Source: an uncultured Poribacteria bacterium
GTDB lineage: Bacteria > Poribacteria > WGA-4E > WGA-3G
Assembly: GCA_951828385.1 (NCBI GenBank)
Contig: OX639973.1
Span: 4,641,200 to 4,705,199 of the forward strand
DNA: 64,000 nucleotides
Direction of reading: 5' to 3'
Shown: in pieces, positions 43,624 to 47,044 of the stretch
Numbering within the stretch: the first letter of the stretch is position 1
How the letters are laid out: every line of letters begins with the position of its first letter
The notes under the pieces: generated by a model
The model's input: only the letters and a program-made list of their open reading frames with translations
Databases searched by the model: none
Told to the model about the DNA's origin: nothing
Position numbers and translations under genes: made by a program

Positions 43624-45012
43624 ATGAAATTTCACGATACGATTGCAGCCATCGCAACAGCACAAGGTGAAGCCGGCATCGGGATCGTTCGAGTCAGCGG
43701 GGCACTCGCACGGACCATCGCCGCTGAAGTCTTTCGATCGCCGCGCGGTGTATCTCCGACACAACTGCCAACGCATACACTGACTTATGGGCGCGTCGTC
43801 GATGCAACCGCATCCGATGAGATTATTGATGAAGTCCTACTCGGAGTCATGCACGCACCGAGAACTTATACCGGCGAAGACATTGTTGAGTTTAACTGCC
43901 ACGGTGGGGCAATACCCCTCACGGCGGTGTTAGACGTAGTGGTGAAGAACGGCGCACGCATCGCAGAGCCAGGCGAATTTACAAAACGCGCGTTCCTAAA
44001 CGGGAGACTTGACCTTGCACAAGCCGAAGCCGTCGCGGAACTCATCGCCGCAAAAACAGACCTGAGCCGAAAAATCGCTGTAGAGGCACTCGCCGGAAAA
44101 CTCTCTGATACCGTTAATGGATTGAACGACCGGCTCGCAGCCTTACTCGCAGAAATCGAGGCTTCTATCGACTTCCCAGAGGAAGACTTGGATTTCATGA
44201 AGGTGGAAACGCAACTCGAAGCCGCACGTGCAGTCCAGACCGATCTGACGGCACTCCTTGAAACCGCCGCCGAAGGCAGGCTTATCACGGAAGGTGCTAA
44301 CGTCGCGATCCTCGGTAAACCGAACGTCGGGAAATCGAGCCTGCTCAACGCACTGCTCGAAACGACACGCGCGATTGTCACCGATATACCCGGCACAACG
44401 CGCGATACTATTGAGGAGATGATGAACATCGGCGGGATCCCCTTGAAACTCATTGATACTGCCGGAATCCGACACACAGATGACATTGTAGAACAACAAG
44501 GCGTTCAACGCAGCAAAGCGGTACAGGATCGGGCAGAATTGCTTCTGATGATGTTCGATGCATCGCAACCGCTCAATGATGCCGATCTCGAACTCTTAAA
44601 AACAGCACAATCCTCCAAGGCAATTCTTATTCTAAATAAGATGGACCTACCTGTTGTAACGTCACCAACAGCGCTGCTCGCGCACTGTCCGAAAAAACAG
44701 GTCGTTGAGACAGTGATTCCTCAAGGTAAAGGACTTGACAAACTGAAAGCCACCGTCTCTGAGGAACTGCTCGGCGGTGAATTGGTCATCGGTGAATCGC
44801 CGATCGTGACAAACGCTCGCCACCAAGAAGCACTCCGACGCGCCAATGAAGGACTTAATTATGCGATAGAAAGCCTCGAAAACGCGATGCCCCCTGACCT
44901 CATCGCTGTCGATCTACGAATCAGCCTTGACGGCCTCGGTGACATCGTCGGTAAAACAACGACTGAAGATATTCTCGATAGAATTTTCTCACAGTTCTGT
45001 GTCGGAAAGTGA
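43624..45012 (+). CDS. mnmE: tRNA modification GTPase MnmE
   Basis: This 462-aa protein works with MnmG to install carboxymethylaminomethyl groups at wobble U34 of tRNAs. It has the N-terminal tetrahydrofolate-binding domain, the G domain (GKPNVGKSSLLNALLE for G1, DTAGIR for G3, NKMD for G4), and the C-terminal Cys motif FCVGK (CIGK in most species). There is no gap after jag, so the two are coupled. Confidence 0.96.
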   Translation: MKFHDTIAAIATAQGEAGIGIVRVSGALARTIAAEVFRSPRGVSPTQLPTHTLTYGRVVDATASDEIIDEVLLGVMHAPRTYTGEDIVEFNCHGGAIPLTAVLDVVVKNGARIAEPGEFTKRAFLNGRLDLAQAEAVAELIAAKTDLSRKIAVEALAGKLSDTVNGLNDRLAALLAEIEASIDFPEEDLDFMKVETQLEAARAVQTDLTALLETAAEGRLITEGANVAILGKPNVGKSSLLNALLETTRAIVTDIPGTTRDTIEEMMNIGGIPLKLIDTAGIRHTDDIVEQQGVQRSKAVQDRAELLLMMFDASQPLNDADLELLKTAQSSKAILILNKMDLPVVTSPTALLAHCPKKQVVETVIPQGKGLDKLKATVSEELLGGELVIGESPIVTNARHQEALRRANEGLNYAIESLENAMPPDLIAVDLRISLDGLGDIVGKTTTEDILDRIFSQFCVGK

Positions 45013-45102: not shown

Positions 45103-45300
45103 ATGTTAGCCGCAAAACAACAGTGGTGCCCGCGCTGCCAAAGGCACGTCCAAACAGAACAGAAACAGTCCAGTATTGGCAGACAGAAAGAACTCGTCAG
45201 AATTATCATTACCTGTTTCAAGTGTCGGACAACGCTATCGAGCAAAACAACCAGCGCAGCTGCGCTTGAACAAAACGAGGATAATTCAACGGAAGAATAA
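45103..45300 (+). CDS. Small zinc-ribbon protein
   Basis: This 65-aa protein starts at ATG 45103, 9 bases after AAAGGAG. It has two CxxC pairs (WCPRCQRH, CFKCRTTL) spaced ~28 residues, a likely zinc ribbon, and an acidic tail. No wider family is recognised. It follows mnmE by 90 bases. Confidence 0.65.
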   Translation: MLAAKQQWCPRCQRHVQTEQKQSSIGRQKELVRIIITCFKCRTTLSSKTTSAAALEQNEDNSTEE

Positions 45301-45384
45301 CGCATTTCCCAAGCCTGGTAGGCACTGACGACTGATAACTGAAAACCAACAACTAACAACTAATAACCAACAAAGGAGAAACGC

Positions 45385-46299
45385 ATGTTTAATTCCGTTT
45401 TTCGCCGTGTTTCACTCGGCGTTTTACTGCTGATGATAGGCACAATGTCAGCACTCGTCGCGAGCGCAGAAATCAGCTGGGAAAAATCGCTTGAGGACGG
45501 TATGAAGGAAGCCGAAAAAACCGGCAAACCTGTTATGCTCGACTTCTACACCGACTGGTGAGGCGCGTGCAGTCAGCTGGATGCTGAAACATTCACGAAT
45601 GCGCGCATCATTGAGTTGTCCAAAGGATTCATTCCGATCAAGGTAAACCCAGAAGACCAAGAACACCCTGAGAATATGGAAGCCGTTAGACGGTATCAGG
45701 TTACCGGATACCCGACAATCGTCTTCACGAGTTCAGATGGCGGGATGATCTCGAAACAGGTAGGATTCGCCTACCCCAACGACTTCGCACCGGTGATAGA
45801 AGCTGCGTTGGAAAAAGAGCAAGCCTTCGTCGAACAACTTGCCAAGCTTGAAAAAAAACCGGACGATGCTAAGTTGAACGCGCAGGTTGCACTCACCTAT
45901 CTCGAACGGACGCAGCTTGAAAAAGCACTCCTGTTCAGTAAGGAAGCTTTTAAACGCGACCCGAAAAATAAGACAGGTCTTATGCCAAATTTGCACAACC
46001 AACTCGGACTCACTTACGCCGCAAAGGTTGAAGCGGCTATGGTTGGAGCACCTGAAGAAGCCGAGATGTACTTTGAAAAAGCGGTTTCTCACTTCAGAAC
46101 GGTGATAGACGAGTATCCGAAGAGCGATGTCAACGGTCCCGCCCAATATTTTCTCGGTGTGACGTACGCGATCAAAGGCGAGTTTGATGACGCAATCGCA
46201 GTGCTTGAGAAGCTAATCCATCATACCAGCGATGCGAATATCAAACAGAACGCTGAAGCGATGTTGGAACGGGTAAAAGATTTGGCGAGTTCTAACTGA
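45385..46299 (+). CDS. Thioredoxin-like TPR protein, in-frame TGA read as selenocysteine
   Basis: The frame starts at ATG 45385 (AAAGGAG 6 bases upstream) with a signal peptide (LLLMIGTMSALVASAE) and runs 304 codons to 46299 if TGA 45559-45561 (codon 59) is read through. The context is FYTDW-TGA-GAC, exactly where thioredoxins have WCGAC, so the motif becomes UxxC. The reading frame continues perfectly as a thioredoxin fold (VTGYPTIVFTSSDGG) and TPR repeats (ISN-terminal region from ~160). A hairpin TCAGC-TGGAT-GCTGA starts 12 bases after the TGA. Sec readthrough is the best explanation; a point nonsense mutation is the alternative. Confidence 0.8.
45562..45606 (+). promoter_or_regulatory. 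Bacterial SECIS-like hairpin
   Basis: Immediately after the TGA, the lower stem GCGCG/CGCGC (45563-45567/45602-45606) and CA/TG enclose an upper stem TCAGC/GCTGA (45573-45577/45583-45587). The loop TGGAT begins 17 bases after the TGA. Bacterial SECIS elements need a stem-loop in this window with a G in the first two loop positions, which is met. Confidence 0.65.
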
Positions 46300-46330: not shown

Positions 46331-47044
46331 CTACAATGCCATTAACGCTGTAATCTCCCTCGGGGTCAAAAATCGATATTGTCCTTGTGGGAGGTTACCC
46401 AATCGCAAATTGCCAATCCGAGTCCGCTGTAAACGGATGACCGGATGCCCCACGGCTTTAAACATCAAGCGCACCTGCCGTTTTTTCCCCTCGTGAATGA
46501 CCACCTCAAACTTCGTTGACGCGCCATCTCTGCTTATTTTTATACGTTCAACTTTCGCCGGTGCCGTTGTCCCGCTCGGAATCGTGACACCTTCACGCAA
46601 CCGTTGAACCGCGGCAGCGTTTGGCAGTCCTTTCACCCACGCGAGATAGGTTTTTTCTATCTCATGGCTCGGATGTAGCAACCGATAGGCAAAATCTCCA
46701 TCATTTGTGAAGAGGAGAAGCCCCTCGGTCTCCAAATCCAAGCGTCCAACCGGATAGATACTATCAGGTAAGTCTGCGACGAGATTCATGACAGTAGGTC
46801 GTCCCCGTTCATCGCTGCGTGTCGTTAAGTAGCCCGCAGGTTTGTTCAGCATCAGATAGATGCGTTCCGTTAGCGGTTCGACCCGTTTCCCTTCACATTC
46901 AACTATATCGGTCTCCACATTAATCGGGTGTCCCGGTACAAGAACAGGTTCACCGTTCACAGTGACCAACCCAGCTTGGATACGCTTTTTCACCGCCCGT
47001 CGAGAGGCGATGCCTGAGGTGGCAATATACTTTTCAAGTCGCAT
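46331..47044 (-). CDS. rluB: RluB/RsuA-family pseudouridine synthase
   Basis: This 237-aa protein has an N-terminal S4 RNA-binding domain (RLEKYIATSGIASRRAVKKR) and the pseudouridine synthase catalytic motif PVGRLDLETEGLLLFTNDGD with the essential Asp. The later KKRQVRLMFKAVGHPVIRLQ is typical of RluB/RsuA. It modifies 23S or 16S rRNA; which position is not decidable from sequence. Confidence 0.88.
   Translation of the reverse strand: MRLEKYIATSGIASRRAVKKRIQAGLVTVNGEPVLVPGHPINVETDIVECEGKRVEPLTERIYLMLNKPAGYLTTRSDERGRPTVMNLVADLPDSIYPVGRLDLETEGLLLFTNDGDFAYRLLHPSHEIEKTYLAWVKGLPNAAAVQRLREGVTIPSGTTAPAKVERIKISRDGASTKFEVVIHEGKKRQVRLMFKAVGHPVIRLQRTRIGNLRLGNLPQGQYRFLTPREITALMAL

Follow-up and report, generated by a model that had tools for sequence, protein, structure and literature searches.

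An in-frame UGA at the active site of a putatively exported thioredoxin-TPR protein, predicted to be read as selenocysteine and kept across a Poribacteria-type order

The analysed stretch of 64,000 nucleotides (hereafter the window), located at 4.64-4.71 Mb of a 6.66 Mb genome contained in one contig, was found to carry a gene at 45385-46299 that, with very high confidence, encodes a bacterial selenoprotein: a predicted UxxC envelope oxidoreductase with a TPR domain, in which UGA codon 59 would be read as selenocysteine (Sec) by way of a SECIS element. The active-site stop codon of this thioredoxin-like protein is almost certainly read as Sec, a feature shared by an entire order of uncultured bacteria (Poribacteria). 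The protein most probably serves as a thiol-disulfide oxidoreductase (UxxC) that is exported and carries a TPR domain for protein binding; Sec insertion, export, redox activity and the role of the TPR part are what we infer. All coordinates refer to the forward strand of the window unless stated otherwise.

Translation of 45385-46299 yielded 304 residues and a terminal stop. The only internal stop was the TGA at 45559-45561 (codon 59), in the context DFYTDW-U-GACSQLDAETF, and the predicted Sec59 is followed by Cys62 (TGC, 45568-45570), the second residue of the UxxC motif. The first-pass annotation, which had described one frame interrupted only by this TGA, was right in both coordinates and codon number. 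When the whole window was scanned for in-frame TGA codons flanked on both sides by coding-like segments, the codon at 45559 obtained the top score, and only two others passed, both marginally. As had also been claimed, a ribosome-binding site and a putative signal peptide lie ahead of the TGA. The former, AAAGGAGA at 45372-45379, has its GGAG ending 6 nt upstream of the ATG at 45385, and in the upstream sequences compared, AAGGAGA was kept at this site in most relatives. The putative signal peptide, MFNSVFRRVSLGVLLLMIGTMSALVASA (residues 1-28, 45385-45468), was judged by eye; a signal-peptide-like start was present in nearly all homologous copies. A standard gene finder would begin this gene at an internal codon, the TTG at 45616, and selenoprotein genes usually end up annotated as broken or truncated.

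The expected thioredoxin fold and TPR repeats were both recovered. A thioredoxin-like domain (Thioredoxin_2/Thioredoxin_7) was placed at approximately residues 31-139 (45475-45801) by Pfam, PDB alignment and Foldseek, and a TPR domain at approximately residues 155-302 (45847-46290) by Pfam and by the paired helices of a structure model. Thioredoxin_2 (PF13098) scored 55.4 bits (cut-off 27) at residues 43-137, while Thioredoxin_7 (50.8 bits) and TPR_19 (30 bits) also exceeded their Pfam cut-offs; the PF13098 domain is combined with a UxxC motif (UGAC). The AlphaFold2 model, built from ten sequences of the window family, had a mean pLDDT of 76.7. Its strands and helices succeed one another in a thioredoxin-like manner up to approximately residue 126, and paired helices come after that point. 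pLDDT was low for residues 1-27 and below 50 for residues 56-67, and the model supports the predicted order of the fold while offering nothing reliable on the active site.

Conservation of the TGA was evaluated in 79 homologous copies, 78 of them distinct around the site, which were picked by the pattern UxxC..LDA.T. Within this set, the codon matching position 59 was TGA and the one matching position 62 encoded Cys in every copy (78/78 distinct sequences). The residue preceding the TGA was Trp in 60 copies and otherwise Ser, Thr, Arg or Tyr. In the match tables, to which no pattern selection was applied, one TGA lay inside every orthologue match spanning the site. Sequences with the TGA reached down to 44% identity over the flanking 57 residues. 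Given its presence in all distinct homologous sequences, the in-frame TGA is not a product of chance.

Matches were obtained in 58 of the 59 genomes at the level of the family and in 74 of 85 (E <= 1e-15) at the level of the phylum. The closest named loci, with up to 92% protein identity, belonged to Candidatus Poribacteria MAGs. TGA-bearing homologues were distributed over four families of the order and extended to a more distant genome from another family of the class (G070), where the protein was 33% identical and the TGA was retained. The gene was present in every genome of the order except one (G015), in which the sole match was a DsbD-sized protein. This 95% complete genome of the family contains selB, and the gene has either been genuinely lost there or falls into a gap of the assembly.

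The two halves of the gene had similar dN/dS values, about 0.18 upstream of the TGA, 0.16 downstream and 0.20 over the TPR region, at a median dS of 0.7-1.0, that is, with highly diverged synonymous sites. These ratios indicate that purifying selection acts on both sides of the TGA.

At the position aligned with codon 59, Cys was found in homologues, as the first-pass annotation had anticipated. In solved structures, the first Cys of CxxC aligned with this codon (WCGHC in PDI, WCGPC in 2kuc, WCGAC in TXNDC12), and the same was true of DsbD structures. A thioredoxin-TPR protein of Leptospira, 27% identical over residues 15-297, carried WCSYC, a DsbD-like protein of the window's own genome (L002) carried WCAAC, and one relative (G076, locus L118) carried LCYWC. 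Sec was paired with Cys in the Leptospira, L118, DsbD and PDB sequences. All Cys forms found were distant, and the 85 phylum genomes yielded no close Cys orthologue. In this strict retention of Sec the family differs from many other selenoprotein families, for which frequent exchange between Sec and Cys has been described. The Cys form in G076 lies in a single ORF (L118:12-2297) composed, in this order, of an ECF sigma factor, a thioredoxin-TPR unit like the window protein and a PD40 beta-propeller, which is possibly a redox-linked sigma factor.

The machinery for Sec insertion, proposed earlier as a check, was complete: selA, selB, selC and selD were all present in the same genome. The scores were 603 bits for selA, 355 bits for selB and 363 bits for selD, and the tRNA-Sec gene, located immediately 3' of selB, reached 76.4 bits against a cut-off of 47 bits and has the anticodon TCA (UCA in the tRNA). 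The selD gene itself (G000:C1:1330118-1331041, L116) has an in-frame TGA, and because this codon sits in the CAG-U-ASK loop (CAGUASK), selD is also read as a selenoprotein gene. A hairpin was observed 3' of the UGA of selD.

Across the phylum, selB was above the cut-off in 76 of 85 genomes. Eight of the nine genomes lacking it were 61-83% complete; the ninth (G062, 95% complete) was the sole case once the comparison was restricted to genomes with a completeness of 90% or more and a contamination of 5% or less, and it also lacks the selenoprotein gene. SelA and SelB have been reported to co-occur in most sponge symbiont bins and to be missing in most close references (PMC5649159). The selenoprotein described here fits this pattern and is one concrete candidate for the reason behind the persistence of the Sec trait in such bacteria. 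When the genome of the window was searched for the combination of UGA and loop found in this gene, no other match was obtained without a mismatch; with one mismatch, ten matches were found versus six for a reversed-pattern control, and no further selenoproteins are therefore claimed from this search.

The search for a SECIS element after the UGA, likewise suggested at the outset, revealed a SECIS-like stem-loop following codon 59. The candidate apical stem-loop of the bSECIS, UCAGC-UGGAU-GCUGA (45573-45587), is separated from the UGA codon by 16 nt up to the loop, and the motif RGC-UGGAU-GCY was conserved in 78 of the 79 copies, with an unchanged offset. Published bSECIS rules comprise a loop of 3-9 nt that has G within its first two positions, an upper stem of 4-16 bp, a distance of 16-37 nt from the UGA and an MFE <= -7.5 kcal/mol (PMC13188914). 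The window element agrees with all of them (16 nt, loop UGGAU, 5 bp, -14.5 kcal/mol in the best fragment). Over the family, the full rule set was matched by 57 of 78 sequences versus 61 of 401 positions taken from these genes as controls; agreement with the rules is enriched and not universal. The 42-nt element had a folding energy of -10.3 kcal/mol, and the folding of the window element alone was unexceptional (z between -0.4 and -1.3). A scan of the window at Rfam gathering thresholds returned no match, and no tRNA was found in the window.

At codons +5 to +8, codon identity among same-residue pairs was 0.93 versus 0.48-0.58 elsewhere. Within the element, Leu was encoded by CTG in 78/78 sequences, whereas CTG makes up 15% of the Leu codons in the remainder of these genes; the corresponding values were 69/70 versus 21% for CGG (Arg) and 70/78 versus 19% for GCC (Ala). 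The element codons are, as their usage indicates, synonymously constrained, with a uniformity well beyond what the protein sequence requires. In 7 copies, CGG/GCC was replaced jointly by CAG/GCT, so that the stem pair was preserved, and in the non-redundant alignment 9 cells were changed on both sides versus 3.3 in shuffles. Compensatory change was limited to one strong pair and the variable 15-29 pair. Shifting the stem partners by +1 yielded a similar covariation score (0.102 vs 0.081). A longer, two-helix SECIS (positions 10-14 with 35-39) was also considered and rejected: 79% of its cells pair, with two-sided change in only one of five pairs, for which reason only the apical helix is claimed.

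Among other readings of the codon, one is a sequencing error, or a nonsense mutation that arose recently in a thioredoxin of the Cys type and left a pseudogene. TGC and TGT are one base from TGA; however, the TGA recurs in every distinct sequence, in dozens of assemblies and at the divergence given above. Its presence in relatives rules out a read error, and together with the low dN/dS on both sides it refutes the pseudogene reading, whose probability is negligible; the first-pass annotation had already regarded a random nonsense mutation as the less likely case, and every refuting condition that it had named was resolved in favour of its reading. Decoding of UGA as another residue, for example as Trp through a changed code or near-cognate readthrough, would agree with the predominance of Trp just before the codon, and an in-frame TGA alone names no residue. 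Nevertheless, TGA terminates 9 of the 44 large ORFs in the window and is thus not globally reassigned; the upstream gene at 43624-45012, which we take to be mnmE (trmE), ends in TGA, so the codon is also a normal stop here. The aligned position in homologues holds Cys, not Trp, and both a SECIS-like element and the full Sec machinery are present, which makes this reading extremely improbable. Termination usually competes with Sec insertion at Sec-UGA codons, and the UGA might in principle be mainly a regulatory stop, with a 58-residue peptide as the usual product and Sec inserted only when selenium is plentiful. Such termination would, however, truncate the thioredoxin fold ahead of the active-site helix, and the two halves of the gene are about equally constrained. 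Partial termination is compatible with a selenoprotein, whereas an exclusive role as a stop is not, and this reading is considered very improbable, if slightly less so than the preceding one.

A different question concerns function, namely whether the selenoprotein is a holdase chaperone under redox tuning, comparable to YbbN/CnoX of E. coli, instead of an envelope oxidoreductase. Foldseek searches matched the thioredoxin part to YbbN (3qou), DsbH, 2kuc and DsbD and the remainder to TPR proteins; YbbN was the top match (E 1.2e-4) and the only one below E 0.001, and its thioredoxin domain is followed by TPR-like helices, the same order as in the window protein. On the other hand, the whole-chain TM-score to YbbN was only 0.27-0.29, at 14% identity, and the nearest sequence matches were of the DsbD, DsbH and PDI types. 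YbbN/CnoX is a cytosolic chaperedoxin without a signal peptide, with a non-CxxC active site and without UxxC. The window protein differs in both respects, with a start resembling a signal peptide by eye, as in nearly all copies, and a UxxC motif whose second Cys is intact. A holdase role is accordingly rated as unlikely, though it deserves clearly more weight than the three readings above.

For the favoured reading, an exported UxxC selenoprotein, the following course may be proposed. SelA and SelD would make Sec-tRNA(UCA), and SelB, bound to the stem-loop just 3' of codon 59, would deliver it, so that UGA 59 would yield Sec and not a stop. The signal peptide would export the thioredoxin-TPR protein to the cell envelope, where thiol-disulfide (selenenyl-sulfide) exchange would proceed through nucleophilic attack by Sec59 and resolution by Cys62. 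Partners or substrates are probably bound by the C-terminal TPR repeats, and a DsbD-type donor perhaps feeds the Sec59/Cys62 pair.

In comparison with known systems, the Sec-for-Cys UxxC pattern invoked by the first-pass annotation is indeed established: both the chemistry and PF13098 are already known among selenoproteins, and a PF13098 thiol:disulfide interchange selenoprotein with UxxC is listed (PMC13188914 Table 1; compare Trx-like 2, PMC2398784). It shares with the window protein the domain type, the Sec-first UxxC and a bSECIS after the UGA, but no TPR fusion is listed for it (representative WP_011366075.1; compared by table entry). The TPR fusion had been described as uncommon, and a thioredoxin-TPR selenoprotein is absent from the 119 families of this 2026 inventory (PMC13188914 Table 1). 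The Leptospira interrogans protein (WP_000735721.1) has the same thioredoxin-TPR order, but it carries CxxC for UxxC and belongs to another phylum. The DsbD C-terminal domain (2fwe, 1vrs and L002) is also thioredoxin-like with Cys aligned to Sec59, but it is part of a membrane electron carrier with CxxC and no TPR.

None of the NCBIfam selenoprotein models reached its cut-off on the window protein. The best match, in the DsbD-like region, was TsoB (NF045694), a rhodanese/DsbD fusion of another architecture with the Sec motif UxxxxU (79.8 bits against a cut-off of 805). The Trx7/PDZ (seleno)protein (NF041199) likewise has a Thioredoxin_7-type domain in a multidomain selenoprotein; it scored 28.9 of 300 bits and differs in having CxxU for UxxC and PDZ for TPR. 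No publication on selenoproteins of Poribacteria or sponge symbionts, or on thioredoxin-TPR selenoproteins, was found in a search outside which most subscription papers and preprints fell. As far as these sources were consulted, the mechanism, UxxC thioredoxins and PF13098 selenoproteins are known, and only the TPR fusion and the lineage-wide fixation appear to be unlisted. With moderate confidence, the exported thioredoxin-TPR proteins may be regarded as a selenoprotein family of their own, Sec-fixed across the Poribacteria-type order with no close Cys orthologue and duplicated as Sec. If this is true, the lineage relies on selenium for one envelope redox step.

Additional Sec copies were observed in some genomes. 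Two or more copies per genome were often present in one genus (g4; L103, G008:C130 and others), all in the Sec form, with one pair in tandem and some carrying U-Y-W-C or U-D-F-C motifs. A second copy, also in the Sec form but shorter, was seen at another locus (L114, G001:C50); its start resembles that of a lipoprotein (LLLLLIAGC), its motif is U-GFC, and it ends about 70 codons past the UGA.

No hint as to the substrate was found among the neighbouring genes. The conserved upstream neighbour, the presumed mnmE, is followed by a small ORF of 65 aa with two CxxC motifs (45103-45300), then by the selenoprotein gene, and then, on the opposite strand, by a conserved gene at 46331-47044, presumably an rluB-like pseudouridine synthase, and a HAD-type gene. 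This order, from mnmE to the HAD-type gene, was the same in almost every relative of the genus whose locus was long enough, and the 65-aa ORF was likewise conserved in nearly all relatives of the genus.
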